Positions 8,387-60,393 of a stretch of 64,000 nt of DNA are shown piece by piece (the stretch's first letter is position 1; each line of letters starts with the position of its first letter). Origin of the DNA: a virus; the IMG/VR virus record IMGVR_UViG_3300042868_003731, positions 1 through 64,000 of that record. One strand, written 5' to 3'. The position numbers were made by a program, and so were the translations under genes. The notes under the pieces were generated by a model. It ran no database searches. It was not told the origin of the DNA and saw nothing but the letters and a program-made list of their open reading frames with translations.

Positions 8387-9280
8387 TTATTTGAGTAGCT
8401 TTGCTAGAGTCGCTGGCCCAGCGACACCGTCGGCTTCTAATCCATTCTCTCGCTGCCACTTCTTGAGTGCGCCGGCAGTTCCAAAACCAAAGTCACCGTC
8501 TGCGGCAATTCCGAGAGCTTGCTGCATTCTTTTAACATCGTCGCCCTTCATCCCTCTCGTGAGAGTTCTCTGGGCAGCCTTAGGAGCAGCGGCCGCTGGT
8601 TTTGCTGCCGACGCTGGTTTTGCTTGCTCAGTAACAGGAGGTGCAGAAACCTTACCGCCAAGTAGTGCTTTCGCTTTTGTATAACGAGTAGTACGATCTT
8701 CAAGACCAATCGTTCCACCATTGATTTTCTTAGTCATTCCAACAATGTCGTCTGCATCTGCAAACTTAGCGATGTTGTTCGTTTTCCAGAACCAGCATGC
8801 GGACTCAAGAGCACCTTTCTTTGTGTCAAGATAAGCTGATGCCTGTTCTGCGGTCATGTTAACAGTCTTTGCGAATGCGGTGTAGTTATTACGTCCAGTT
8901 AACTGCTTAACTCCGCGACCACGGAATCTCCAACCATCTCCTGCTTGAGTATTTCCCATAGCACCCTGCTTACTTCTAAACTCGTCCATATAGACGTAGT
9001 TCGCAATCTTCTCTGGGTTCTTTGCATACTCAGCTGCATTGCGCTTTCCAGCTCCGAAGTAGCGTGGGAATACCTTGAGAAGAGTTTCTTCACGATAGTT
9101 AAGGTTCTCTTCAAGCATTGTAAAGTCAGCTGACTCGTGAGCACACTGTGCCATGAAAGCCGCAATGCGAAGTGGTGTTGTGATTTCATACTTTTCAAAC
9201 ATGTCGATAGCTACATCATACCATTCTTTAGCTTCTTTATTCTTCGGTATCATTGCGCTGAACTGTTCTAATGTAATCAT
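8387..9280 (-). CDS. Endolysin: GH19 domain plus peptidoglycan-binding domain
   Basis: 297 residues. The N-terminal GH19/chitinase-like domain shows AQCAHESADF with the catalytic Glu and GWRFRGRGVKQLTGRNNY. A proline/alanine linker (about residues 200-225) leads to a PG_binding_1 repeat (GMKGDDVKRMQQALG, GTAGALKKWQ). It would degrade the cell wall at lysis once released by a holin. It is coupled to the upstream gene by a 4-bp overlap. Confidence 0.9.
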   Translation of the reverse strand: MITLEQFSAMIPKNKEAKEWYDVAIDMFEKYEITTPLRIAAFMAQCAHESADFTMLEENLNYREETLLKVFPRYFGAGKRNAAEYAKNPEKIANYVYMDEFRSKQGAMGNTQAGDGWRFRGRGVKQLTGRNNYTAFAKTVNMTAEQASAYLDTKKGALESACWFWKTNNIAKFADADDIVGMTKKINGGTIGLEDRTTRYTKAKALLGGKVSAPPVTEQAKPASAAKPAAAAPKAAQRTLTRGMKGDDVKRMQQALGIAADGDFGFGTAGALKKWQRENGLEADGVAGPATLAKLLK

Positions 9281-45400: not shown

Positions 45401-45439
45401 TTTGTATTCCTTTGAGTTGGTTGGTGTGAGTGTCACCAG

Positions 45440-45600
45440 TTCTGTTTCGAGGTCGGTGACCCACCCAAGTAGATTATGCTGCGAGAGCGTAAGCTACAGG
45501 AGCTGCGTTTGTGTTTGCAGTTGTAATTTTGGCTGAATAACGTAGGCCAACACGGTAATCTCCACTTGCTTTCAACACCTGTCGATCCCTAGTCAGCCCC
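45440..45600 (-). ncRNA. ssrA: tmRNA coding piece (permuted gene, downstream part)
   Basis: The 5' end at 45600 reads GGGGCTGACTAGGGATCGAC, pairing its GGGGCTG with CAGCTCC of the acceptor piece. A pseudoknot-1-like hairpin TTGGC/GCCAA and a helix CAAGTGG/CTACTTG flank the message region. The tag frame 45518-45477 reads ANTNAAPVAYALAA and stops at 45474, the standard form of a proteolysis tag. Two-piece permuted tmRNAs are typical of Alphaproteobacteria. The RNA rescues stalled ribosomes together with SmpB (not seen here). The 3' end is approximate. Confidence 0.88.
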
Positions 45601-45612
45601 GCCAAAAGTAAA

Positions 45613-45918
45613 TTAAAGGTTATGAAGATTGTGATGGTCGTTGTCATATGTGTGAATTGCATGACAGTTATGACATAAAATTCTACACTTACTGATTTCT
45701 TCCATCAACATTTCCATACCCCAACGAGTAAGTTGTTTAGCAGAATATTTTGGATGCTTTGTGCTAGGATCCAAATGATCAAATGCTAATGCTTGTGGAT
45801 GTTTATTAAAACCACAAATTTCGCATCCTCTGCTTATTTTATACTCATTTAGAAACGCGCGCCTTTCCAGACCCTTGTCTTTCTTATACTGCTTAAAAAC
45901 TTCTTTATCTGCAAACAT
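45613..45918 (-). CDS. HNH endonuclease inside the tmRNA intervening segment
   Basis: 101 residues from the ATG at 45918 with AGGAGG 6 bp upstream. CEICGFNKHP, FDHLDPSTK and CRILCHNCHA form the paired Cys2 zinc sites and the catalytic HNH/DH core. The whole gene fits within the 360 bp between the CCA end of the tmRNA acceptor piece (45960) and the first base of the coding piece (45600), where processing would normally discard the RNA. Probably a homing-type mobile gene. Confidence 0.88.
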   Translation of the reverse strand: MFADKEVFKQYKKDKGLERRAFLNEYKISRGCEICGFNKHPQALAFDHLDPSTKHPKYSAKQLTRWGMEMLMEEISKCRILCHNCHAIHTYDNDHHNLHNL

Positions 45919-45959
45919 AGATTCCTCCTTTGTTTCGCAAACATCGTTTAATTTACTTT

Positions 45960-46020
45960 TGGTGGAGCTGCGGGGATTTGAACCCCGGTCCAGAATGTCT
46001 ATCGTCTGCTTCAACGATTA
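45960..46020 (-). ncRNA. ssrA: tmRNA acceptor piece (permuted gene, upstream part)
   Basis: Reads a T-arm (CGGGG TTCAAAT CCCCG), acceptor strand CAGCTCC, discriminator A and encoded CCA at 45962-45960. ACATTCTG can pair with CAGGTGT of the coding piece as helix 2. It lies upstream of the coding piece on the transcribed strand, so the gene is circularly permuted. The 5' end is set from the promoter at 46028-46055. Confidence 0.88.
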
Positions 46021-46027
46021 CTAGTTA

Positions 46028-46055
46028 TATATAAACCAATTTGAGAAAATGTCAA
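46028..46055 (-). promoter_or_regulatory. Sigma70-like promoter of the tmRNA gene
   Basis: TTGACA, 16-bp spacer and TATATA on the minus strand, just upstream of the tmRNA acceptor piece. It suggests early, independent transcription of the RNA. Confidence 0.5.
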
Positions 46056-50869: not shown

Positions 50870-50943
50870 TGGATGCCCGTCGAGGATTCGAACCGCGATT
50901 ACTAGGGTCAGAGCCTAGCGTCCTACCGTTAGACGAACGGGCA
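50870..50943 (-). tRNA. tRNA-Gln (CTG)
   Basis: Cloverleaf with U1-A72 acceptor pair, Glu/Gln-type D-arm TCGTCTAACGG, anticodon stem CTAGG/CCTAG with loop CTCTGAC (anticodon CTG), T-arm and encoded CCA. The discriminator is U. Confidence 0.85.
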
Positions 50944-50944
50944 A

Positions 50945-51021
50945 TGGTGTCCCTGAGAGGACTCGAACCTCCAACACCTAGCACCTCAAGCTAGTGACTC
51001 TACCAGTTGGCCTACAGGGAC
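50945..51021 (-). tRNA. tRNA-Leu (GAG), short variable arm
   Basis: Acceptor GTCCCTG/CAGGGAC, A73, encoded CCA; anticodon stem CTAGC/GCTAG with loop TTGAGGT (GAG). The variable loop is only about 5 nt, although bacterial tRNA-Leu normally has a long arm. Confidence 0.8.
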
Positions 51022-51026
51022 ATATT

Positions 51027-51103
51027 TGGAGCGGAGAATGGGACTCGAACCCACGGCCATCTGCTTGGCAAGCAGAAGCTCTACCACTGAGCTACCTCCG
51101 CAT
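51027..51103 (-). tRNA. tRNA-Gly (GCC)
   Basis: Acceptor GCGGAGG with TCTCCGC, anticodon loop TTGCCAA, T-arm GTGGG TTCGAGT CCCAT, encoded CCA. Confidence 0.93.
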
Positions 51104-51108
51104 TATTG

Positions 51109-51182
51109 GTACCGTGCATGGGCTTCGATCCCATTCCATCTCAGTCACAGTGAGATATGCTTCCACTTACACTTGTCACGGC
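51109..51182 (-). tRNA. tRNA-His (GTG) lacking G-1
   Basis: Anticodon loop CTGTGAC (GTG) on stem ATCTCA/TGAGAT. Acceptor starts G1 with U72, discriminator A73, encoded CCA, and U at -1 instead of the universal G-1. This A73/G1:U72 form is known from a subset of Alphaproteobacteria with a divergent HisRS. Pair 7-66 is a mismatch. Confidence 0.85.
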
Positions 51183-51188
51183 ATTATC

Positions 51189-51371
51189 TTATTTCTTTTC
51201 GAGTTCTAGAATTCTATCTTGAATACAACTCATAATAGCTTGAGGTCCTACTGGTTTATTTACGTCGTAGTCTTTATGTTTACCATACTGAATCTCATAT
51301 GCAGTTTTGTAGTTTTCGATAAAGATTCTAAGACCGGTCAGTTCAGCGTATTCAAGACTCGTTTTAGCCAT
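51189..51371 (-). CDS. Small hypothetical protein in the tRNA region
   Basis: 60 residues (MAKTSLEYAELTGLRIFIEN ...), ending in a helical ILELEKK. One base after the next gene's stop. No known motif, but intact and tightly packed between tRNAs. Confidence 0.6.
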   Translation of the reverse strand: MAKTSLEYAELTGLRIFIENYKTAYEIQYGKHKDYDVNKPVGPQAIMSCIQDRILELEKK

Positions 51372-51372
51372 A

Positions 51373-51621
51373 TTAGTTCAGCCTTTCGTTCCAAAATGCT
51401 TGATACATTTCTTTGTCAGTTTTCCAACGAGGGCGAGTAGATGTTGGGTGTTCATACAGGCCAACACGTTCAACAAACTTAGTAATCTCTCGTTCAATCG
51501 CAGACTCAAACTCAGATTTCACTGGAGTTGCATAGAGCTTTTTCCATTCATCTACGAGTGGAGCATTCTCGGCTTGAACGCGTCGCTGTGTCTGGAACCA
51601 TTCTGTATCGTCAAGAATCAT
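51373..51621 (-). CDS. Small hypothetical protein in the tRNA region
   Basis: 82 residues, mostly helical and charged, with no signal or membrane segment (MILDDTEWFQTQRRVQ...). Paired with the gene at 51189 in one short operon between tRNA-Leu(TAA) and tRNA-His. Function unknown. Confidence 0.62.
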   Translation of the reverse strand: MILDDTEWFQTQRRVQAENAPLVDEWKKLYATPVKSEFESAIEREITKFVERVGLYEHPTSTRPRWKTDKEMYQAFWNERLN

Positions 51622-51646
51622 ATTTCACTCTCTCCATATGTTATAG

Positions 51647-51723
51647 TGGTACGGGCGGTGGGAATCGAACCCACAAAACTCAGATTTTAAGTCTGATACG
51701 GTTACCTGTTACGTCACGCCCGC
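51647..51723 (-). tRNA. tRNA-Leu (TAA), short variable arm
   Basis: Acceptor GCGGGCG/CGCCCGT, A73, CCA; anticodon stem TCAGA/TCTGA with loop CTTAAAA (TAA). Variable loop about 5 nt, again lacking the class II arm. Confidence 0.82.
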
Positions 51724-51740
51724 AGAATCTCTTGTATGGA

Positions 51741-51771
51741 TATATATTAACACGAATTACATTAATGTCAA
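51741..51771 (-). promoter_or_regulatory. Weak sigma70-like promoter
   Basis: TTGACA on the minus strand with an AT-rich TATATA region 18-19 bp downstream, just ahead of tRNA-Leu(TAA). The intervening 51724-51812 also separates it from the divergent plus-strand genes. Confidence 0.35.
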
Positions 51772-51812
51772 TAGGTGAACTACATTATTATCAACGAAGA
51801 GAGGAAAAGGTC

Positions 51813-52259
51813 ATGCAAATCAAGAAATTTTTCGAAATCTACATGTATCTTCCAATACTCGCTTTACTAGTAGGTAGTTACATTGTCTTCTTTGCAGAAG
51901 ATAAGTATCGTTACGAGTGCCAAAATCCAGACTTTTGGAGCGCACCTGAATGTAACCCACCTATCTGTCTAGCTACTGGAACATGTACATCTGATCTAAT
52001 ATCGCTAGACGGAAACTACTCGAACAGATACGAGGAACAAGTCAACAAATTTATGAGTCTGCCAGCAGAAGAAACTCCATCGGAAGAAGCAGCTGCGTCT
52101 GAAGAATATACCGGAAAAGTTGACGAGATTATTCAAACTGAAGAAGCAAGTACTGAAGAGATGATAGATGAAAATAGCAGCGTGTTTGAACTTGAAGAAA
52201 GTCCAAATATAGTCGACGGTATCAACCAAACAATAGAAGAGACCAACGCAAATGAGTAA
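51813..52259 (+). CDS. Membrane-anchored Cys-containing phage protein (plus strand)
   Basis: 148 residues from the ATG at 51813 (GAGG site). One N-terminal membrane helix (about 11-27), then a periplasmic YECQNPDFWSAPECNPPICL plus ATGTC Cys cluster and an acidic tail. This protein type and its partner at 52252 recur in T4-like marine phages; they may form a membrane complex such as a holin or superinfection factor. One of only two plus-strand genes here. Confidence 0.72.
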   Translation: MQIKKFFEIYMYLPILALLVGSYIVFFAEDKYRYECQNPDFWSAPECNPPICLATGTCTSDLISLDGNYSNRYEEQVNKFMSLPAEETPSEEAAASEEYTGKVDEIIQTEEASTEEMIDENSSVFELEESPNIVDGINQTIEETNANE

Positions 52260-52518
52260 TAGTCAAGATAAAATTGAAGAACTAAACGCAAAACTAAGAT
52301 TTATTGTTGGCGTATGCCTTGCATTTACGTTAACCGGTACAATCTTTGCTGTATTGTATAGCCTAATACACGTGACACAACCTATGTTCGTGTCACCTAA
52401 CGATCAAAAGTTTTTTGAACTCATTCAACCAATCGCTACATTTTTAACTGGTACACTATCAGGTATAATGCTCAGCGGATCTGGATCAAGTAAGAGCAAG
52501 AAGAACGAAGAAGAGTAA
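52252..52518 (+). CDS. Two-helix membrane protein, holin-like (plus strand)
   Basis: 88 residues. Helices at about 14-38 (GVCLAFTLTGTIFAVLYSLI) and 58-80 (QPIATFLTGTLSGIMLSG), then a KKNEEE end. Overlaps the upstream gene by 8 bp. Holin-like by shape only. Confidence 0.7.
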   Translation: MSNSQDKIEELNAKLRFIVGVCLAFTLTGTIFAVLYSLIHVTQPMFVSPNDQKFFELIQPIATFLTGTLSGIMLSGSGSSKSKKNEEE

Positions 52519-52525
52519 TAAAGAT

Positions 52526-52577
52526 ATCTCGAACGTAAATTAGTCTTACTCCGGGTTGCTAACTTTACGTTCGAGAT
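52526..52577. terminator. Long inverted repeat between convergent genes
   Basis: Perfect 14-bp arms ATCTCGAACGTAAA / TTTACGTTCGAGAT around a 24-nt loop, at the end of the plus-strand pair and inside the 3' end of the minus-strand gene at 52546. Probably a bidirectional terminator or anti-read-through hairpin, though tails are not T-rich. Confidence 0.5.
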
Positions 52578-52767
52578 TCCCTATGCGCTTCTGCCACGCT
52601 TCCTCAAAACCATCCTCATGAACTACGTTCTCGTGGTTACCCCATAGTCTAACGAAGTAACCATCAAGAACTGAACGAACATCTTTGTCTTGCCAGGTCT
52701 CTGGTATTAAGTGACCTTTGACAATCCAATAATACCGATTGGCTTCCTTGCGTTCGGCTGGTGTCAT
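52546..52767 (-). CDS. Small hypothetical protein
   Basis: 73 residues, Trp/Arg/Glu-rich (MTPAERKEANRYYWIVKGHL...). Its stop lies in the convergent inverted repeat. One base after the SpeD-like gene. Function unknown. Confidence 0.62.
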   Translation of the reverse strand: MTPAERKEANRYYWIVKGHLIPETWQDKDVRSVLDGYFVRLWGNHENVVHEDGFEEAWQKRIGNLERKVSNPE

Positions 52768-53130
52768 TTACCCAGCAGAACGAGTAATGAAGTTAAGACG
52801 GATCTTTTTCGGATTGAAGTACTTAACGATCAATTCTTCTGCGATCTTTACGTCAACAGTCTTACAAGAGAAGATGTCGATGTAAGCATCCCCATTTGAA
52901 TCGACCAAGTGACCGGAAATGTTGCTCGTCTCGATCATTTGAAGAAAACTAATGCCTGCTTTGTCGGGTGCATGAGTAGCAAAATGCTCAATCATAGGTT
53001 CGCCAAACGCAATCATTTCGATAGCAGGTACTAATTCTTTAATGAAATTGTGTACGTTTTCTTTACTAGTAATCTTATCAATATCACAAGATGCGCAATC
53101 AAACATTGCGTGGTAACCCCAATAAGCCAT
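52768..53130 (-). CDS. speD: S-adenosylmethionine decarboxylase-like protein (SpeD)
   Basis: 120 residues. The layout MAYWGYHAMFDCASCD, ISFLQMIETSNISGH and DAYIDIFSCK parallels prokaryotic SpeD, which self-cleaves at a Ser to form a pyruvoyl group and makes decarboxylated SAM for spermidine. The usual ES(H) cleavage site is altered (ETSNISGH), but this variant is common in marine phages. It would affect polyamines for DNA packaging or translation. Confidence 0.75.
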   Translation of the reverse strand: MAYWGYHAMFDCASCDIDKITSKENVHNFIKELVPAIEMIAFGEPMIEHFATHAPDKAGISFLQMIETSNISGHLVDSNGDAYIDIFSCKTVDVKIAEELIVKYFNPKKIRLNFITRSAG

Positions 53131-53151
53131 TCATTTTCTCCTATAATAAAA

Positions 53152-53227
<76 letters not shown>

Positions 53228-53234
53228 AAATTCT

Positions 53235-53307
53235 TGGAGCGGGTGGCCGGAATCGAACCGGTCTCCTATAGCTTGGAAGGCTAGTTGGCTACCTTAGCCT
53301 CACCCGC
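53235..53307 (-). tRNA. tRNA-Gly (TCC)
   Basis: Acceptor GCGGGTG/CACCCGC, anticodon loop CTTCCAA (TCC), T-arm ACCGG TTCGATT CCGG, encoded CCA. Confidence 0.88.
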
Positions 53308-53317
53308 ATTAAATTAT

Positions 53318-54067
53318 TTATCCGTTATTTCTTTCTGCATAGATATCTACTAAAAATACATCAGATTCATACGGATGTAAATGTTCTGTATTCGTTATTT
53401 CTTTATTCAAAAAAGCTCTACAAAGTTTTTCTAAAACTGATATCTGCCATGTAATATTACTATAGTTATGCTTTACTATATTATCTAACCAAAATGCAGA
53501 ATTCTTTTTGTATTCTTGTAACGGCAAAATGTTAAATGATTTAATTTCAAATCCATTTTCATTGAACATATTTTTCCAATTATCTATTGTTCTAATTTTC
53601 ATAACCCAGTTTTCATTTAAATAAAAGTCACTTTTATTTGTTTGTACAAAATCATTTATGAAAATTCTATCAGTAGTTTTTGCCAAGTTTGAAAACGCCG
53701 TATCTTTCATATGTGTAATACTTTGAATGAATGATACGATTTCGTATTTAGAATTTGTAGTGTATTCATTAGCGTTTGCAAGAATAACATTGAATTCGTC
53801 TCCAATGTATTCTGCCTGCTGTTTTGATTCGGTTAAACCTGTTATGTGAGCATTTGGAGATATTGACTTAATACGATGTAGCGAGCCACCCCACCCACAG
53901 CCAACATCTAGAACCGTAGCTACATTTTCAAAAATTTTTCTATTATTTAATATTGACTCGCCAAACGCATAATGCATTTGTGTTTCTTTAGATAATATAT
54001 TTTTCCAAACTTCTATTGAAGTTTCATCGAAAAACTTTTTTGAATTATCTAAATACTCTTCACTCAT
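53318..54067 (-). CDS. SAM-dependent methyltransferase
   Basis: 249 residues. Class I motif VLDVGCGWGGSLHRI (motif I), GLTESKQQAE (motif II acidic), VSFIQSITHM (motif IV region). AT-rich, with a long C-terminal extension; possibly modifies a sugar or small metabolite. Preceded by a structured RNA and a late promoter (54195-54290). Confidence 0.75.
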   Translation of the reverse strand: MSEEYLDNSKKFFDETSIEVWKNILSKETQMHYAFGESILNNRKIFENVATVLDVGCGWGGSLHRIKSISPNAHITGLTESKQQAEYIGDEFNVILANANEYTTNSKYEIVSFIQSITHMKDTAFSNLAKTTDRIFINDFVQTNKSDFYLNENWVMKIRTIDNWKNMFNENGFEIKSFNILPLQEYKKNSAFWLDNIVKHNYSNITWQISVLEKLCRAFLNKEITNTEHLHPYESDVFLVDIYAERNNG

Positions 54068-54194
54068 TAATATACCTTTTAATTAAGTACTCGTCTCTCC
54101 GAGCTGTCATGTTTCGCCGGCTAATACGCCAGGCCTTCATCTTACATTTCGATGGGTTAGCTTCGTTATCGCTTACTATCCACAAATTAAAAAC
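54068..54194 (-). other. Untranslated leader before the methyltransferase gene
   Basis: No gene. It holds small hairpins on the minus strand (CTGGC/GCCGG near 54111-54126 and AGCTCG/CGAGTA near 54090), continuing the structured RNA at 54195-54277 toward the ATG at 54067. Confidence 0.4.
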
Positions 54195-54277
54195 TGGATG
54201 GTCTGTGGACCTCGTCGATACTATCTAACCATATGATAGCGGTTGTTACCCCGCAGATTGGTTGCAGTATCCATCCA
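54195..54277 (-). ncRNA. Structured RNA of unknown class under a late promoter
   Basis: Nested stems: TGGATGG (54271-54277 side) with CCATCCA, ATACT/AGTAT, AACC/GGTT and GCGG/CCGC. The predicted start of the late transcript from 54283-54290 falls at its 5' end. Not a tRNA (no anticodon or T-arm). Could be a 5'-UTR element of the methyltransferase gene or an independent RNA. Confidence 0.5.
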
Positions 54278-54282
54278 AATAG

Positions 54283-54290
54283 TATTTATA
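54283..54290 (-). promoter_or_regulatory. T4-type late promoter (TATAAATA)
   Basis: Exact TATAAATA on the minus strand directly upstream of the structured RNA at 54195-54277. Confidence 0.7.
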
Positions 54291-54752
54291 TCAACTTTCA
54301 GTCCAAGCCTTTACTTTATCACAGTGAGCTTTCCAAGGTTCTGCATCATACTCATAACGCATACGCTCTCTGTTCCACTTCTTACTCAGCTTATCAGCAA
54401 CTGGGCCATACTTATTAACCATCTCACAAACACGAGGAAGGATGCGAGTACGAAGCACAGATGTATCATTGCACTTATTCTCAACAGACTTATATGGTTT
54501 GCCAGTGAGATAAGCACGAGCAAGGAAGGTAGCACGGTTCTCGTTACGCACTTCCCATTTGCGGTGTTGGCTGATAGATTTGTATTCGTTAAATGCTTTA
54601 TCATGCCAACGTGGATAGATGTCGTTGTGTCCAGCTTCTCTGTATTTGTTTAGAGACCACTGATACTGTTTGAGTAACTTACGTTCTTCAAAACGAATGA
54701 TACGAGCTTCTTCTGAAAGGTGTTTAGATTTAATTTTAAGTTCTATAGACAT
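54291..54752 (-). CDS. Conserved hypothetical helical protein
   Basis: 153 residues from the ATG at 54752 (AGGAGA site). Charged, Trp/Arg/Lys-rich (MSIELKIKSKHLSEEARIIR...), probably nucleic-acid related, but no motif identified. Downstream of the gene at 54861. Confidence 0.65.
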   Translation of the reverse strand: MSIELKIKSKHLSEEARIIRFEERKLLKQYQWSLNKYREAGHNDIYPRWHDKAFNEYKSISQHRKWEVRNENRATFLARAYLTGKPYKSVENKCNDTSVLRTRILPRVCEMVNKYGPVADKLSKKWNRERMRYEYDAEPWKAHCDKVKAWTES

Positions 54753-54860
54753 TGTTAGTTCTCCTAAATTGGGTTTCATTTTTACTTCATGATGTATGCC
54801 CCAATTTAGGGCGGTCTAGTAATCTACAAGTGATATCTCTTCATTTGTATTTCTCCTTTA

Positions 54861-55487
54861 TTAACTTTCTGTAATGTTGTAAATGTAATGGTCAGAGGTC
54901 TCAAAAGTTCTCTTATTCTCTACTGAATAACAAGTCATATCAATTTCATACCCGGGATTGGCTGAGATACGATTAGATGTAAATGCGCTATCATACCATA
55001 TAATTCTATTATTTGGATAAGCGTAGTAATTTCCAGTTTCTACTTTGAACAGATGAGCACACTTATGCTCAGGTGTTTCTGCAAAGTTAAAATCGGCCAT
55101 TGCTTTGTTTTCAAAGCCCCAATCAAGAGTGAACATGTAATCACCACGTACTTTTGTATTATCAGGACGAATTAGTTCAGCGCTTAACCCAGCCAAGCGA
55201 TGTCTACGTTGAACGTCAATGTACGTGGAAAAACAATCCCAATACATGATTTGATTTAGTGGTTCTATTTCTGCTTCCGGATCCCAACAAAGCGCGTGCA
55301 GAGGTCTACGAGTCCAGTTTACACCATTTTCTAAAAAGCATTCAAATAATGGCGTTCTTTTCTCCATGCTTGCGACTGAGTGAACATTACATTTGGAAAC
55401 TTCGCCATGTCCTTTTGTGTGATTGTACAAAAACTCATTGCGAATGTAGCAAGGCCAATCTGGTAGGTTGTGATTTAGATACGACAT
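54861..55487 (-). CDS. Hypothetical protein
   Basis: 208 residues, Trp/Tyr/His-rich, with no signal peptide (MSYLNHNLPDWPCYIRNEFL...). The pattern of aromatic beta strands suggests a compact beta fold, perhaps an enzyme or binding protein. AAGGA site upstream. Not recognised. Confidence 0.65.
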   Translation of the reverse strand: MSYLNHNLPDWPCYIRNEFLYNHTKGHGEVSKCNVHSVASMEKRTPLFECFLENGVNWTRRPLHALCWDPEAEIEPLNQIMYWDCFSTYIDVQRRHRLAGLSAELIRPDNTKVRGDYMFTLDWGFENKAMADFNFAETPEHKCAHLFKVETGNYYAYPNNRIIWYDSAFTSNRISANPGYEIDMTCYSVENKRTFETSDHYIYNITES

Positions 55488-55511
55488 TTATTTACACTTT
55501 CCTTAATATAG

Positions 55512-55645
55512 TTATCCGGCTCTAACATATGCACGACCTGAGAAGGTTTTTATCGGCTTTGCCAGCATATACAGCGCTAGTTAATGTAAGCGGTACATAA
55601 GTTGTCTCGGTTACTCTTATGCCATTTCTTACAAAGTCGGATTCG
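55512..55645 (-). pseudogene. 3'-end remnant of a structural-type gene with a frameshift
   Basis: Minus-strand reading VTETTYVPLTLTSAVYAGKA continues, after one extra base in an A5 run (55547-55551), as FSGRAYVRAG and stop at 55512. No start codon is left before tRNA-Sup(CTA). It looks like a decayed gene end captured between tRNAs. Confidence 0.45.
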
Positions 55646-55723
55646 TGGTGGTCCAAGCGGGATTTGAACCCGCGGCCGTGAGTTTTAGAGACTCGCGCTC
55701 TAACCAAGCTGAGCTATAGGACC
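55646..55723 (-). tRNA. tRNA with CTA anticodon (candidate amber suppressor)
   Basis: Full cloverleaf: acceptor GGTCCTA/TTGGACC (one mismatch), D-arm with GGTT, T-arm GCGGG TTCAAAT CCCGC, encoded CCA. Anticodon stem GAGT/ACTC with loop CTCTAAA gives CTA, which reads UAG. The loop differs from the Trp tRNA encoded at 55886 (CTCCAAA) by one base, but the rest is unlike it. Confidence 0.78.
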
Positions 55724-55732
55724 ATATTTAAC

Positions 55733-55796
55733 AGGATCGTTTTGTCCGCTAAGACATCCAATACGATTTAGCGTTTTTGTTTGCTGAACCGATCCT
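55733..55796. ncRNA. 64-nt structured RNA element, copy 1
   Basis: Ends are perfect 7-nt complements AGGATCG/CGATCCT. Inside are a CGCTAA/TTAGCG stem and a small GTTTGCTGAAC hairpin, giving a three-way junction. A second copy of identical length lies at 58274-58337 with the same stems and different loop. No tRNA features. Strand cannot be decided; neighbours are on the minus strand. Confidence 0.55.
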
Positions 55797-55802
55797 AAAT
55801 TT

Positions 55803-55879
55803 TGGTCCGAGTAGCAGGATTTGAACCCACGACATCTTGCTCCCAAAGCAAGCGCTCTACCAAACTGAGCTATACTCGG
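55803..55879 (-). tRNA. tRNA-Pro (TGG)
   Basis: Acceptor begins C1-G72 as usual for Pro; anticodon stem CTTGC/GCAAG with loop TTTGGGA (TGG); encoded CCA. Confidence 0.9.
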
Positions 55880-55885
55880 ATATAT

Positions 55886-55960
55886 TGGCACCGGTGGTAG
55901 GAATCGAACCCACTGCGCGAGGTTTTGGAGACCTCCGCTCTACCATTGAGCTACACCGAT
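55886..55960 (-). tRNA. tRNA-Trp (CCA)
   Basis: Anticodon stem GAGGT/ACCTC with loop CTCCAAA (CCA), G73, encoded CCA, acceptor ATCGGTG/CACCGGT. Confidence 0.9.
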
Positions 55961-55968
55961 ATAAATTT

Positions 55969-56044
55969 TGGCTCCCTGACCAGGGCTCGAACCTGGGACA
56001 TTCTGATTAACAGTCAGACGCTCTACCAACTGAGCTATCAGGAA
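55969..56044 (-). tRNA. tRNA-Asn (GTT)
   Basis: Anticodon stem TCTGA/TCAGA with loop CTGTTAA (GTT), G73, encoded CCA, T-arm CCAGG TTCGAGC CCTGG. Confidence 0.92.
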
Positions 56045-56049
56045 ACTAT

Positions 56050-56139
56050 CTCTGTTTTCCGCTATACCCCAGCGCATTGCGTGTTTCAGTAAAGTTTGGG
56101 TGGCCGACCCTCATTTACGGGATATAGCGGGAAACAGAG
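56050..56139 (-). ncRNA. 90-nt structured RNA under a late promoter
   Basis: A 17-bp closing stem (CTCTGTTTTCCGCTATA on plus pairing with TATAGCGGGAAACAGAG, one G-U). Inside, GTAAA/TTTAC encloses GGGT/ACCC. The promoter at 56155-56162 would start the RNA just upstream. No tRNA features. Resembles the closing stem of the element at 60186-60334. Confidence 0.55.
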
Positions 56140-56154
56140 CACTCGTTACAATAC

Positions 56155-56162
56155 TATTTATA
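56155..56162 (-). promoter_or_regulatory. T4-type late promoter (TATAAATA)
   Basis: Exact TATAAATA on the minus strand overlapping the stop of the gene at 56158, directly upstream of the 90-nt structured RNA. Confidence 0.7.
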
Positions 56163-56556
56163 CAACTTCAGCACGAAAGAAGTTGATCGCGTTGTCAAAC
56201 ATTGCTGCCATGCGATAAGGCAGACCCTTAAGGAAGCAGATGTAGCTGCCACCGTACATCATGTCGATATCGCTAAGCTCCAAACCTTGGACGATCCAAC
56301 GAACTGCGTCTTCACGCGAACGAGCACCAACATCAAGAGCGTTTGCAATCTCAAGCTCGAAAGCATTGATCGCAGCGATCTGTTCTTGAGCTTCCCGCTC
56401 ACGCGCTTGCTCAAGTTCTACAAGCAGGTTATCCCACATGGCTTGACGAGTGTCGTCGCCGCACTGAGTCCACTCTTCCCAGAAGTATGCATCTGGGCGA
56501 TAGCCGTAAGCATCCTTGTGGAGGTCGGAGACGATCGTTTCATCGAAGGTATACAT
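56158..56556 (-). CDS. Hypothetical helical protein
   Basis: 132 residues. Acidic helical middle (LLVELEQAREREAQEQIAAI) and a hydrophobic C-terminal third. DLHKDAYGYRPDAYFWEEW near the start looks conserved. Driven by the early promoter at 56583-56611. Function unknown. Confidence 0.65.
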   Translation of the reverse strand: MYTFDETIVSDLHKDAYGYRPDAYFWEEWTQCGDDTRQAMWDNLLVELEQAREREAQEQIAAINAFELEIANALDVGARSREDAVRWIVQGLELSDIDMMYGGSYICFLKGLPYRMAAMFDNAINFFRAEVV

Positions 56557-56582
56557 GATCAGTTCCTCTTCTGTATATTCTC

Positions 56583-56611
56583 AATCTACACTGATTCGAC
56601 AGAAATGTCAA
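56583..56611 (-). promoter_or_regulatory. Sigma70-like early promoter with GAATCAGT spacer
   Basis: TTGACA, 17-bp spacer containing GTCGAATCAGTG, then TAGATT, upstream of the gene at 56158. Confidence 0.6.
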
Positions 56612-56614
56612 CTA

Positions 56615-56812
56615 TTATTTGTTAGCGAGGTAGTAACGAACCAACATCATATCAGTTTCATCGAGCGGTTTACCTGCCCAGTTTGCACCTTGGACGGCGA
56701 CCTTTTCCGAAACGCGAGCGAGGTTGTTTGCAATCACGTCGTTCTTGTGAGTGCGAGCCATCTCGGACATACCGTAGGCAATCTCAGCAAGTTTGGAGCT
56801 AGCGATATTCAT
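56615..56812 (-). CDS. Small helical protein
   Basis: 65 residues from the ATG at 56812 (AAGGAA site): MNIASSKLAEIAYGMSEMAR..., ending RYYLANK. Preceded by its own early promoter at 56842-56870. Function unknown. Confidence 0.6.
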   Translation of the reverse strand: MNIASSKLAEIAYGMSEMARTHKNDVIANNLARVSEKVAVQGANWAGKPLDETDMMLVRYYLANK

Positions 56813-56841
56813 CAAGGTTTCCTTTCGTTCCTTACATTATT

Positions 56842-56870
56842 AGAATACACTGATTCGACATGAATGTCAA
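56842..56870 (-). promoter_or_regulatory. Sigma70-like early promoter with GAATCAGT spacer
   Basis: TTGACA, spacer TTCATGTCGAATCAGTG (17 bp), TATTCT on the minus strand. Confidence 0.65.
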
Positions 56871-56873
56871 TAG

Positions 56874-57038
56874 TTATTTGTATGTACCATTTTTAATTTG
56901 GGCATACACATAACGTGCATCAGCATCGAAATCTTCCCTAGTGCATTCGCTCAGGTCAAGATCCATCCAAGCAAACACTTTAGTCGCGACTTCTTTATCA
57001 ACTTGAAGAAGCTCCATGATATCACGAATGTAAAGCAT
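56874..57038 (-). CDS. Small acidic protein
   Basis: 54 residues: MLYIRDIMELLQVDKEVATK ... YVYAQIKNGTYK. AAAGGA site upstream and its own early promoter at 57070-57098. Function unknown. Confidence 0.6.
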   Translation of the reverse strand: MLYIRDIMELLQVDKEVATKVFAWMDLDLSECTREDFDADARYVYAQIKNGTYK

Positions 57039-57069
57039 AACGTTGTTTCCTTTCGTTACTTACATTATC

Positions 57070-57098
57070 AATATAAACTGATTCTATGTGAATGTCAA
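57070..57098 (-). promoter_or_regulatory. Sigma70-like early promoter with GAATCAGT-type spacer
   Basis: TTGACA, 17-bp spacer ending AGAATCAGTT, then TATATT on the minus strand. Confidence 0.65.
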
Positions 57099-57110
57099 CC
57101 ATTATTTTTT

Positions 57111-57199
57111 TGGCGGGTGGCACAGAAATCGAATCTGACAGACTTGCGCCTGCGCATCGCTTTCCAGGCGAGCCCTAGTCCCAACTAGGATTACCACCC
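57111..57199 (-). tRNA. tRNA-Ser (GGA)
   Basis: Class II tRNA with a stem-forming variable arm (TGCGC/CGCA); anticodon loop CTGGAAA (GGA); G73; encoded CCA. Confidence 0.88.
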
Positions 57200-57203
57200 G
57201 TAT

Positions 57204-57291
57204 TGGCGGACCGTCTGGGAGTCGAACCCAGTGAACGATTGCTCGTTCTACAGATTAGCAATCTGCTGCATTACCGTCCTGCCCACGATCC
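57204..57291 (-). tRNA. tRNA-Ser (GCT)
   Basis: Class II tRNA with variable arm GAACGA/TCGTTC; anticodon loop TTGCTAA (GCT); G73; encoded CCA. Confidence 0.9.
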
Positions 57292-57292
57292 A

Positions 57293-57526
57293 TTAGTCTT
57301 CATCAGTTGCTTTATAAAAGTCTTCCATCTTCTTTTCTTGAAGAGTCTTTTGATCCCACCACTTGCGTGGATTACCACATAAGTAGCAGGAACACAGATG
57401 CGGTGTATGAGAATAGACTCCAACATCAGCATCGGTTAGATCACGAGCTCGATGTTTTGAGAAAAACTTTCGAACCCACTGCTTCTTCTTAAGTTCTTGA
57501 AATCGTCGAAAAGCTCTATCGCGCAT
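57293..57526 (-). CDS. Conserved CxxC-type small protein
   Basis: 77 residues. Basic helical N-terminus and PHLCSCYLCGNPRKWWDQKT, a Cys-rich motif also found in bacterial and T4-like phage proteins of unknown function; possibly a zinc site. Confidence 0.72.
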   Translation of the reverse strand: MRDRAFRRFQELKKKQWVRKFFSKHRARDLTDADVGVYSHTPHLCSCYLCGNPRKWWDQKTLQEKKMEDFYKATDED

Positions 57527-57549
57527 TGTGCTCTCCTATACTATATAAC

Positions 57550-57739
57550 AGAATGTTTGGGGAAAGCTAAGATTGCTCTTAGCGGCACCTTGCCATACTC
57601 CCCATCAAAGATACACTGTTTGGATTCAAACCTTGTTCTAGTCTTGTCGATCTGCGCTTCTCACAGTGCTGACAGTGTATCCATGGTGGGGAGTACTGGA
57701 ATCGAACCAGTAGTTTTGTTTTGTTGCTGTAAACATTCT
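57550..57739 (-). ncRNA. Candidate permuted tRNA-like RNA
   Basis: On the minus strand the order is: AGAATGTTT (57739-57731); a T-arm ACTGG TTCGATT CCAGT; acceptor 3' strand ACTCCCC, A73 and encoded CCA (57684); a 72-nt segment closed by a 10-bp stem GATACACTGT/ACAGTGTATC; then the 5' acceptor strand GGGGAGT (57603-57597), a small D-arm-like GGC/GCC hairpin with GG in the loop, a GCTAAGA/TCTTAGC hairpin, and AAACATTCT pairing with the first element. The 3' half therefore precedes the 5' half, as in permuted tRNA or tmRNA genes. No anticodon was found. Confidence 0.6.
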
Positions 57740-57745
57740 AAATTT

Positions 57746-57822
57746 TGGTGCCCATGGAGGGACTCGAACCCCCAACATACGCGTTCTAAGCGCGCCGACT
57801 CTACCAATTGGCCTACATGGGC
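57746..57822 (-). tRNA. tRNA-Leu (TAG), short variable arm
   Basis: Acceptor GCCCATG/CATGGGC, A73, CCA; anticodon loop CTTAGAA (TAG). D-arm TAGGCCAATTGGTAGAG nearly matches that of tRNA-Leu(GAG); variable loop about 5 nt. Confidence 0.82.
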
Positions 57823-57829
57823 ATGTAGT

Positions 57830-57904
57830 TGGTGCGGAATGAGAGGGTCGAACTCCCGACAACCTCGGTGTAAACGAGGGGCTCTACCACTGAGCTAATT
57901 CCGC
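57830..57904 (-). tRNA. tRNA-Val (TAC)
   Basis: Acceptor GCGGAAT/ATTCCGC, anticodon stem CCTCG/CGAGG with loop TTTACAC (TAC), encoded CCA. Confidence 0.92.
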
Positions 57905-57913
57905 ATTATTGAA

Positions 57914-58001
57914 TACGATGGAATAGTGAGCGACGGTAGCGACCCGTACCTCTTTCTAGTTTATGTGTTAAGACAACCAAGACTCTAACACAACCATCGT
58001 A
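57914..58001. ncRNA. 88-nt structured RNA element between tRNAs
   Basis: Ends TACGATGG/CCATCGTA pair perfectly (8 bp); inside are ACGG/CCGT and GTGTTA/TAACAC hairpins. No T-arm or anticodon. Confidence 0.5.
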
Positions 58002-58004
58002 AGT

Positions 58005-58078
58005 TGGCGACCTATGAGGGACTTGAACCCTCTTTATCCGGTGGACAGCCGAATGTAATACCCATATACGAATAGGCC
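58005..58078 (-). tRNA. tRNA-Asp (GTC)
   Basis: Anticodon stem ATTCGG/CCGGAT with loop CTGTCCA (GTC), G73, encoded CCA. Confidence 0.9.
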
Positions 58079-58085
58079 AATTCTA

Positions 58086-58169
58086 TTACCAGCGATTTGA
58101 TCCTGGTCCATCTGAAATCCAGAGAATTGCAACTATAACCACTGCCATAAAGATAAGAAATGCAGCCAT
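58086..58169 (-). CDS. 27-residue membrane microprotein
   Basis: MAAFLIFMAVVIVAILWISD then GPGSNRW: one hydrophobic helix and a polar end, with a GGAG site upstream of the ATG at 58169. Small single-helix proteins of this kind can be lysis or membrane regulators; function unknown. Confidence 0.5.
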   Translation of the reverse strand: MAAFLIFMAVVIVAILWISDGPGSNRW

Positions 58170-58188
58170 TAGATGTTCTCCGTTATAT

Positions 58189-58264
58189 TGGTGGACCCTA
58201 GGAGGATCGAACTCCTGACCTCCTGCTTGCAAGGCAGGCGCTCTCCCAGCTGAGCTAAGAGCCC
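58189..58264 (-). tRNA. tRNA-Ala (TGC)
   Basis: Anticodon stem CCTGC/GCAGG with loop CTTGCAA (TGC), A73, encoded CCA. Position 3-70 is G-U, the Ala identity pair. Confidence 0.93.
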
Positions 58265-58273
58265 AAATTAAAC

Positions 58274-58337
58274 AGGATCGTTTTGTCCGCTAAGACTATC
58301 ATAACATTTTAGCGTTTTGGTTTGCTGAACCGATCCT
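58274..58337. ncRNA. 64-nt structured RNA element, copy 2
   Basis: Same 7-bp ends AGGATCG/CGATCCT, same CGCTAA/TTAGCG stem and GGTTTGCTGAACC hairpin as copy 1 at 55733-55796, but a different apical loop. Confidence 0.55.
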
Positions 58338-58343
58338 AAATCA

Positions 58344-58431
58344 TGGCGGAAGCGGTGAGATTCGAACTCACGGAACGTTTCCGTTCGGCAGTTTTCAAGA
58401 CTGCAGGCATAAACCTCTCGCCCACGCTTCC
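58344..58431 (-). tRNA. tRNA-Ser (TGA)
   Basis: Class II with variable arm GAACG/CGTTC; anticodon stem GCAGT/ACTGC, loop CTTGAAA (TGA); G73; encoded CCA. Confidence 0.92.
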
Positions 58432-58432
58432 T

Positions 58433-59098
58433 TTATTTTTGCGCTTCTGTATTTCTATATACAAACAGACCTTTGTCTATCGTATAGTTATGTTGTCTGA
58501 TACCACCAAAAGTCCACAGTTCTCTTTCTTGTTCGATACTCTGTAAGTTGTTTGGTGGTTCAATTCTAGCTGTTTTCTTAATCGAAGAAATGTTTGAATT
58601 CTCTCCGTTTGATGCTTTAATATTAAATTGAACGCTTTCGATTTGAAAAAGTTTATTGCGAATTACGTTCATCATACTATCAATATATGATATTCTCTTT
58701 GTGTCGTGAAACATCATCTCTCCGCCGTTCTTTAACAGATACCATGTCTTACGCGCAAAGTCTTCTCTAAATGTTTTCTCACCATCAACAAATATGAGAT
58801 CAAAGCTTTCTTCTCTAATTTCTTTATTCATGAAATCTTTATACCGATAGAACTCATAATTATTAGACTTATGTTCAATAAGATCTAATCTATTCTGTAG
58901 TTCTTCAATCCATTGCTGTCGAGTCTCAACGCAAGTAACTGATGCGTTAGAATCAATACTCTGAAGAAATATCATTGTCGAGCCACCAGGGCCAAATTCT
59001 AATATCTTTAGAGCAGTCTTTGACTTCTGAGCTAGTACGTCTGCGTCTTCAAGACTAAGAGCGCCAACCCATTGCATATTTTGAATATGAGTTAACAT
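58433..59098 (-). CDS. Class I SAM-dependent methyltransferase-like protein
   Basis: 221 residues from the ATG at 59098 (AAAGG site). ILEFGPGGSTMIFLQSID is motif I, TCVETRQQW motif II, DLIFVDGEK motif IV. Probably a small-molecule or glycan methyltransferase. Sits between tRNA-Arg and tRNA-Ser. Confidence 0.72.
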   Translation of the reverse strand: MLTHIQNMQWVGALSLEDADVLAQKSKTALKILEFGPGGSTMIFLQSIDSNASVTCVETRQQWIEELQNRLDLIEHKSNNYEFYRYKDFMNKEIREESFDLIFVDGEKTFREDFARKTWYLLKNGGEMMFHDTKRISYIDSMMNVIRNKLFQIESVQFNIKASNGENSNISSIKKTARIEPPNNLQSIEQERELWTFGGIRQHNYTIDKGLFVYRNTEAQK

Positions 59099-59121
59099 AG
59101 GAAACCTTTCAATAGAAAGTA

Positions 59122-59197
<76 letters not shown>

Positions 59198-59204
59198 AAT
59201 GTTT

Positions 59205-59273
59205 TTGGCTCTAGCACCTCCTCGTGCCGACTTAGCTGCCCTATCCCAGCAGTACCGATTATAATAAGACCAA
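59205..59273. ncRNA. Structured element between tRNAs
   Basis: About 69 nt closed by TTGG/CCAA, with hairpins GCAC/GTGC and CTGC/GCAG. No tRNA features; weaker than the other elements. Confidence 0.35.
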
Positions 59274-59283
59274 GAAATAATTT

Positions 59284-59360
59284 TGGTAGGCCCGCACGGA
59301 CTCGAACCGCGATCAGCAATCTTATGAGGATTGTGACTTAACCAATTAGTCGACAAGCCC
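59284..59360 (-). tRNA. tRNA-Met or tRNA-Ile2 (CAT)
   Basis: Anticodon stem CAATC/GATTG with loop CTCATAA (CAT), A73, encoded CCA. Whether C34 is modified to lysidine (Ile) cannot be told. Confidence 0.85.
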
Positions 59361-59367
59361 ACTAAAA

Positions 59368-59931
59368 TTATTTCTTTCTATTTCTTGCGCTTTCAGTCAT
59401 TTTCTTTTTTGTTTCTTCTGAAAATGTTTGTCTTGCCCGCGCTTCTTTTATCTTATTTTTTGTTTCTTCTGAAAGTTTTCTTCCACTCATTGTTTTTGAT
59501 ATTTTATCTTTTTGATTTGATGATATTGTTTGACCTTTGTTCCAAGCAGCGTTATCTTTATAGTGTTCTTTAAGACCTTCACTTATTTTTTTACGATGAT
59601 CTACAGAGCTACTTATTTCTTTCATGTAAGAGCCGTGCTTTTTCCCTTTGAAATGAGGTCCTCCTTCTCCGCCAATTCCGGCGTTGTAAGTATCTTTTCT
59701 GGATACAAACTCTTCTGTTATCAACTCTTTCTCTTTTGTATTCATTTCTTCTTCAGTATCGAAGACAAATAGTATCTCTTTAGTAAAGTTCTCTTTACCA
59801 TATTTCTTCATGGCAGACCTTATGAACTTTCCAGAGCCATAATATCTATCATTGAGATTGGTAGTTTGATGCTTTCCTATGTATATTTTTCCGTTAAGCT
59901 CATTAGTTATTTGGTATATTGTGTAAAGCAT
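59368..59931 (-). CDS. GIY-YIG homing endonuclease
   Basis: 187 residues from the ATG at 59931 (AAGGAG site). TIYQITNELNGKIYIGKH holds the GIY-YIG motif with catalytic Tyr/Arg region RYYGSG; the C-terminus has NUMOD3-type DNA-binding repeats (KISKTMSGRKLSEETKNKI). Seg-type mobile gene inserted in the tRNA cluster. Late promoter at 59949-59956. Confidence 0.88.
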   Translation of the reverse strand: MLYTIYQITNELNGKIYIGKHQTTNLNDRYYGSGKFIRSAMKKYGKENFTKEILFVFDTEEEMNTKEKELITEEFVSRKDTYNAGIGGEGGPHFKGKKHGSYMKEISSSVDHRKKISEGLKEHYKDNAAWNKGQTISSNQKDKISKTMSGRKLSEETKNKIKEARARQTFSEETKKKMTESARNRKK

Positions 59932-59948
59932 TATAATCTCCTTTTGTC

Positions 59949-59956
59949 TATTTATA
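59949..59956 (-). promoter_or_regulatory. T4-type late promoter (TATAAATA)
   Basis: Exact TATAAATA on the minus strand, 18 bp upstream of the GIY-YIG gene. Confidence 0.75.
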
Positions 59957-59973
59957 CAAAAAGATATTTCATA

Positions 59974-60006
59974 GCGGGCAACTCTAACCAATTGAGCTAA
60001 TCCCCC
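59974..60006 (-). other. 5'-half tRNA remnant
   Basis: GGGGGATTAGCTCAATTGGT plus TAGAG is a perfect tRNA 5' acceptor and D-arm, but no anticodon arm, T-arm or 3' half follows; the late promoter of the GIY-YIG gene begins instead. Probably a leftover of the homing insertion. Confidence 0.55.
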
Positions 60007-60013
60007 GATTTGT

Positions 60014-60101
60014 TTTAGACTGGGCTGTTTGCAGCTTTGACCTGCCGGCGATGACGGATCAGGGACACCTTCACAAGAGGTGATTAATTCTACAGTCTAA
60101 A
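60014..60101. ncRNA. 88-nt cloverleaf-like structured RNA
   Basis: Closing stem TTTAGACTG/CAGTCTAAA (9 bp), with three hairpins GCTG/CAGC, CCTGCCG/CGGATCAGG and CACCT/AGGTG. Four-way junction but no T-loop, anticodon or CCA. Confidence 0.5.
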
Positions 60102-60103
60102 CT

Positions 60104-60181
60104 TGGTTGCGGTGGGTAGGAATCGAACCTACGTCTTCGGCTTATGAGACCGTGCTGGAACCACCTCCAGTCTACCCCGCA
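60104..60181 (-). tRNA. tRNA-Met (CAT), initiator-like
   Basis: Anticodon loop CTCATAA (CAT). The 3' end reads CGCAACCA, with A72 and A73 as in initiator tRNAs, here with U1. D-arm CTGGA/TCCAG. Acceptor has one mismatch (6-67). Confidence 0.75.
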
Positions 60182-60185
60182 AAAC

Positions 60186-60334
60186 TTCTGTTTTCAACTA
60201 TGACTGTGAAAGCTTCGAACTTTCGAGCGCTCAGGGGCACGCTGGCCCTTTTGGCATTGTAAATCACGGTCAGCCAGACCACCTATGGATTCGAACCATA
60301 GTACTCCCATTTACAGTCATATGTGAAAACAGAA
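60186..60334 (-). ncRNA. 149-nt multi-branched RNA with T-arm-like hairpins
   Basis: Closing stem TTCTGTTTTC/GAAAACAGAA and a second ATGACTGT/ACAGTCAT. A T-arm-like hairpin GAAAG/CTTTC with a TTCGAAG loop stacks on the second stem, and another CTATGG/CCATAG hairpin with TTCGAAT loop lies inside GTAAAT/ATTTAC. No CCA. Its closing stem matches that of the element at 56050-56139. Confidence 0.5.
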
Positions 60335-60393
60335 TTTCTTCTGTTTCCTTTTCTAAATTGTCAAAGAGCTAGTTAGTTTCTTCTTATATTGTT

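Follow-up and report, generated by a model that had tools for sequence, protein, structure and literature searches.

A permuted two-piece tmRNA gene of a phage with an HNH endonuclease gene in its intervening sequence

The window analyzed here, 64,000 nt long, covers positions 1 to 64,000 of the virus record IMGVR_UViG_3300042868_003731 (217,966 bp) and contains a permuted two-piece tmRNA gene, whose features all lie on the minus strand. The Rfam model RF04321 (tmRNA_permuted) matched positions 46022-45474 over the full model (1-213) with 104.6 bits (E 2.4e-19; Rfam cut-off 47). The alpha_tmRNA model RF01849 reached 50.5 bits against a cut-off of 50 on 46068-45429, and this alignment was the sole route by which the pseudoknots were assessed. 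The gene was not called by ARAGORN, probably because of the long spacer. A first-pass annotation had proposed a permuted two-piece tmRNA in a phage, in which the acceptor piece precedes the coding piece. This placement was recovered, and the identification was borne out by the RF04321 match, by the phage context, which includes a T4-type gp32, and by the presence of a region identical to the tmRNA locus in several other viral contigs. Comparison of the whole tmRNA region with 50,697 phage records gave no match. Elsewhere in the window, a large phage tRNA cluster (50870-60362) includes a tRNA with the anticodon CTA (55646-55723, minus strand; tRNA-Pyl according to ARAGORN), a possible amber suppressor.

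Direct reading of the sequence revealed a candidate promoter at 46026-46055, formed by TTGACA (46055-46050), a spacer of 16-18 nt, and TATATA; an automatic scan, which demands T at the last -10 position, had missed it. The acceptor piece (45960-46022, from RF04321) comprises the 5' strand of helix 2, the T-arm GGACCGGGGTTCAAATCCCCG, the acceptor 3' strand CAGCTCC (45970-45964), A73 (45963), and an encoded CCA (45962-45960). The coding piece (45425-45600, from the covariance match and the sequence, with an approximate 3' end) contains the acceptor strand GGGGCTG (45600-45594), a D-arm analogue, the 3' strand of helix 2, the tag frame, and the 3' region GAAACAGAAC. The 7-bp acceptor stem described in the annotation is present and includes a G3-U70 wobble, a mark of alanine acceptors, and helix 2 is part of the covariance-model alignment. 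The tag reading frame (45474-45518) was likewise found as described: it runs from the resume codon GCA at 45518 to TAA at 45474 and reads ANTNAAPVAYALAA-stop, with a hydrophobic degron at its end. The annotation had further called the permuted layout an alphaproteobacterial trait, which is too narrow; permuted genes also occur in phages of the gammaproteobacterial hosts Stenotrophomonas, Xanthomonas, Pseudomonas, and Acinetobacter. The annotation also suggested that a phage copy might serve ribosome rescue or the retagging of host proteins in infected cells, roles that are possible for this gene. The T-loop of the window tmRNA is the canonical GTTCAAATCC, and that of alphaproteobacterial chromosomes is of the GGTACCC type. 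Phage tmRNAs generally have a canonical GTTCRANTCC T-loop and differ in this from alphaproteobacterial chromosomes.

Between CCA and GGGGCTG lies an intervening sequence (IVS) of 359 nt (45601-45959), with a G+C content of 0.35 versus about 0.5 in the adjoining tmRNA pieces. The annotation had overlooked that this IVS is almost filled by a complete gene for a 101-aa HNH endonuclease, which is located wholly within it (45613-45918; ATG at 45918, TAA at 45615-45613) and is preceded by a perfect Shine-Dalgarno sequence, AAGGAGG (45924-45930). The acceptor stem is extended by a 24-nt inverted repeat with arms at 45947-45970 (5') and 45594-45617 (3'), 92% complementary and 329 nt apart; a stem of 22-24 bp forms in the minimum free energy fold (z -5.4), with the HNH gene as its loop. 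A 14-bp inverted repeat at the IVS ends was considered as a transposon end and rejected, since phage permuted tmRNAs generally have an extended stem of this kind.

The best PHROG match of the HNH protein was PHROG 2255 (HNH endonuclease, E 5.4e-23), and the search against Pfam returned no family and no recognised DNA-binding domain. The motif residues are C32xxC35, D47-H48, and C82xxC85-H86; in an alignment of five proteins, C32, C35, H48, C82, N84, C85, and H86 were invariant. Phage homologues were about 36-51% identical among the matches listed, including YP_007676475.1 of Synechococcus phage S-RIP1 (50.5%), and those in S-RIP1, Lyrsu03, and GAP52 are ordinary stand-alone genes. In Streptomyces phage JimJam, an HNH relative is placed directly between two tRNA-Leu(tag) genes (L563, 1129-1593), which suggests that the family may target tRNA-like genes. 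No additional HNH copies were found in the phage genome of the window, and the AlphaFold model of the protein (pLDDT 51.5) was too poor for a fold search.

A second phage, IMGVR_UViG_3300007171_000825 (hereafter L133), also has a permuted tmRNA with an HNH gene in its spacer (RF04321, 90.1 bits at 8714-9235). Both tmRNAs retain the acceptor stem, G3-U70, CCA, the T-arm, a tag frame ending in ALAA (ANTNAKPEALALAA in L133), and the extended stem, and L133 has a comparable TTGACT...TATAAA at the place equivalent to the candidate promoter of the window. The two HNH proteins are 90% identical. The changes between their genes comprise 17 synonymous ones over 58 sites and 12 nonsynonymous ones over 245 sites (dS 0.37, dN 0.051, dN/dS 0.14); judged by this ratio, the HNH gene is under purifying selection. 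Alignment of L133 8770-8800 with window 45918-45960 showed that L133 lacks 26 nt between two ATGTTTGC repeats, the Shine-Dalgarno sequence included, and its HNH may therefore be poorly translated.

Other proteins of the two phages are far less similar: identity is 56% for gp32, 71% for PstS, and 43% for a 203-aa protein that on inspection resembles a hydrolase. Their gp32 proteins are about equally far from that of Sinorhizobium phage phiN3 (53% and 60%). At the DNA level, similarity spans 45998 to 45578, that is, 421 nt at 86% (gp32 DNA, 69%), so that it sets in 36 nt ahead of the CCA end, runs through the IVS, and breaks off 22 nt inside the coding piece. In the tag and pseudoknot region, the two tmRNAs are 68% identical and no closer to each other than unrelated phage tmRNAs are. 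The 90% identity of HNH versus 56% for gp32, with similarity restricted to the IVS and short flanks, argues for lateral movement of the HNH unit, whose apparent mobility between distant phages is well supported by these comparisons. The tRNA-like domains are 98% identical, versus 68% for the mRNA part, a level also reached by 11 of 2271 tmRNA pairs whose mRNA part is similarly diverged. The tRNA-like flank likely travelled along with the HNH unit (co-conversion), a reading that is no more than suggestive, because tRNA-like domains are conserved anyway; as proof of homing, co-conversion is weakened by the 2271-pair control.

We gathered further phage permuted tmRNAs from viral contigs by DNA patterns chosen blind to open reading frames, which after removal of near-duplicates gave 58 whose extended stem is paired and whose IVS is 60 nt or longer. 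Where the IVS measured at least 135 nt, an ORF covered at least 75% of it in 15 of 19 cases, with 1.14 expected from dinucleotide shuffles; for an IVS of 60-134 nt, such coverage occurred in 7 of 39 versus 8.4 expected, hence no excess. At a coverage of at least 70%, the long-IVS set gave 16/19 in sense and 2/19 in antisense orientation. Among the 15, the ORF of L365 starts with GTG, is not significant when taken singly, and may be non-coding. Spacer ORFs typically start 13-17 nt into the IVS, often behind a purine-rich AAAGGA-like stretch directly after CCA, and often stop at the TGA of TTTTGAT just ahead of GGGG or 12 nt inside. All 13 of the loci checked with Rfam scored for RF04321 (98.7-147.5 bits). 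A 41-aa membrane-like spacer protein shared by four related tmRNAs had dN/dS values of 0.07-0.27; a second and a third family had 0.35 and 0.49, and a fourth pair was too similar to judge. Searches of the small spacer proteins against PHROGs and Pfam gave no convincing family. Among the named isolates examined, spacers measured 7-214 nt, with no convincing spanning ORF. A phosphoribosyltransferase gene in the spacer of Cellulophaga phage phi38:1 was rejected as a candidate, the tmRNA being a standard one.

Several side observations were made on these loci. Small ORFs of about 40-62 aa fill the long spacers of L157, L242, L247, L014, L342, L053, L339, L030, and L407, and of L349, L337, L360, L362, L336, L352, L355, L356, and L092; they often have a ribosome-binding-like stretch immediately behind CCA and a stop at or past the spacer end, and for several of them diverged relatives exist that show purifying selection. 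For most coding-spacer tmRNAs, the beta_tmRNA model gave a better match than the alpha model did. In the crAss-like phage cr50_1 (L556), the 214-nt spacer of a permuted tmRNA (876-1244) includes a segment, GAGGTTCGACTCCTC, that resembles a T-arm and may be left over from a tRNA; 254-420, upstream of this gene, holds a RAGATH-22 RNA.

In six loci (L339, L342, L337, L360, L362, and L407), the spacer ORF meets no stop codon before the spacer ends and continues for 25-60 nt in the tmRNA coding piece, so that tmRNA maturation would leave a non-stop message. We considered whether phage two-piece precursors are in general bifunctional transcripts, in which the discarded spacer serves as a protein cassette with its ribosome-binding site just after CCA, in part stop-less, so that RNase P would make a non-stop message to be tagged by the same tmRNA. 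This generalization is speculative and, in our judgment, rather improbable; if true, it would couple synthesis of the spacer proteins to the maturation and activity of the tmRNA.

For a bacterial comparison, 174 of 190 alphaproteobacterial genomes had a match above the Rfam cut-off. The IVS was measurable in 28 of 47 loci and spanned 15-71 nt in 26 of them; the other two had 169 and 236 nt and no spanning ORF. This sample is small and was picked by score and span, and a phage-specific coding spacer therefore stays a working statement. A bacterial control by DNA pattern yielded only false matches and was dropped, because the pattern is blind to alphaproteobacterial tmRNAs with the GGTACCC T-loop.

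We consider it reasonably probable that a homing-type HNH gene has colonised the removable spacer of a two-piece tmRNA gene that looks functional and belongs to a T4-superfamily phage. There would be a single transcript, whose acceptor stem, as the sequence and the fold show, is prolonged to 22-24 bp with the HNH gene as the loop. Cleavage by host RNase P at GGGG and 3'-end processing behind CCA would release the spacer with its HNH gene, and a regular two-piece tmRNA would remain. Insertion of the HNH gene would leave the tmRNA usable, as the gene lies wholly in the IVS predicted to be removed at maturation. The HNH protein could be translated from the precursor or from the freed spacer by means of its own Shine-Dalgarno sequence, and would most likely cut HNH-less tmRNA genes of co-infecting phages, into which the gene would then be copied by repair. 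DNA cleavage and homing are inferred; precedents are T4 SegB, encoded between tRNA genes, and the co-conversion caused by free-standing homing endonucleases (PMC2988022). The HNH relative between the JimJam tRNA-Leu(tag) genes and LAGLIDADG genes in group I introns of tmRNA genes (PMC11915505) are likewise among the nearest precedents. The site would suit a homing element, since the spacer is discarded, other phages conserve the adjoining target, and the element can do without a self-splicing intron; the spacer would offer a safe harbour at this target.

The main rival is that HNH is a passenger or domesticated gene and the IVS an expression slot filled with useful small genes, which would benefit from a strong early transcript at no cost to the tmRNA, with no homing of HNH into the tmRNA. 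We regard this as possible, if on balance doubtful. Its standing as the main rival comes from the unrelated small ORFs that at least 15 other distinct phage tmRNAs hold in this slot; a simple tolerance of the site for genes may be enough to account for them. It is also favored by the blank search for an uninvaded relative, in which the IVS-end pattern retrieved only HNH-bearing matches from viral contigs, and purifying selection by itself is no proof of homing. On the other hand, stand-alone HNH genes of the same PHROG family are widespread in phages, and HNH moved between distant phages with the nearest tmRNA flanks only, as homing predicts. Another rival is that HNH guards phage territory: it would cut the tmRNA gene of competing phages (marker exclusion) or ssrA of the host (an attack on the host genome), with spread of the gene as a side effect. 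The tRNA-like domain is a conserved target across phage tmRNAs. Marker exclusion by free-standing phage endonucleases is known, to judge from the reference list of PMC2988022; however, the T-loop region of alphaproteobacterial host tmRNAs differs (GGTACCC versus GTTCAAATCC), and we hold this explanation to be unlikely.

That the insertion killed the tmRNA, leaving a pseudogene that merely flanks HNH, could be argued from a gene far longer than usual (IVS of 359 nt versus 15-195 nt in our first survey of phage tmRNAs). This seems very improbable, as the tmRNAs of the window and L133 retain the tmRNA features named above for both, despite mRNA parts diverged to 68%, and both score well above the Rfam cut-off. 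The least plausible explanation, to which we give hardly any credence, takes the spacer for an endonuclease-bearing group I intron. Such introns with LAGLIDADG genes do occur in tmRNA genes (PMC11915505), but cmscan found no group I family at its cut-off anywhere in the window, the insertion is located in the IVS of a permuted gene instead of the T-loop, which is uninterrupted, and the tRNA-like domain reads intact without splicing.

The spacer that two-piece maturation removes anyway is a place where an RNA gene can accommodate other genes, a likely mobile nuclease among them, with no need for a self-splicing intron. This capacity of the spacer offers a testable explanation for the retention of permuted tmRNAs by phages. 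Long spacers suggest that ARAGORN has likewise missed other phage tmRNAs. The wider set of proteins encoded in spacers, few of which belong to any known family, constitutes a new group of small phage proteins linked with ribosome rescue. Our literature search, conducted outside subscription-only papers, showed, among the papers listed, no earlier report of an HNH or homing endonuclease or of an ORF in a tmRNA spacer, and the accessible text of a 2025 survey of 97,179 tmRNA sequences mentions no protein-coding spacer (PMC11915505). The coding-spacer pattern in phage two-piece tmRNAs thus apparently had not been reported before.

Two-piece phage tmRNAs as such are not new, having already been published and making up 53 of 133 unique phage tmRNA structures (PMC9004378). 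The window gene shares gene order, acceptor stem, tag, Rfam family, and phage context with Melnitz and Pelagibacter phage Mosig (PMC9004378; RF04321), whereas it differs from the named phage isolates examined in its 359-nt HNH-coding spacer, compared with 7-214 nt without a convincing spanning ORF. Unusual permuted spacers described in the accessible text of PMC11915505, one with a tRNA-Ala gene and another with a repetitive element, have in common with the window extra genetic content in the IVS of a permuted gene. The group I/LAGLIDADG tmRNA genes covered in the same text also have a nuclease gene in a removable part of the tmRNA; there, it belongs to a self-splicing intron in the T-loop, whereas the HNH gene lies in a spacer removed by maturation, with no ribozyme or ligation. 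Phage HNH proteins of PHROG 2255 and 3106 share with the window protein a common family and the CxxC, H, and CxxCH motifs, but those of S-RIP1, Lyrsu03, and GAP52 stand alone instead of being placed inside a tmRNA spacer. The gene of T4 SegB (PMC2988022) resembles the window case in that it belongs to a T4-type phage, encodes a nuclease, adjoins tRNA-like genes, and spreads laterally with its flanks; SegB, however, is a GIY-YIG enzyme encoded between two tRNA genes, whereas the HNH gene sits inside one RNA gene, within the hairpin of its precursor.
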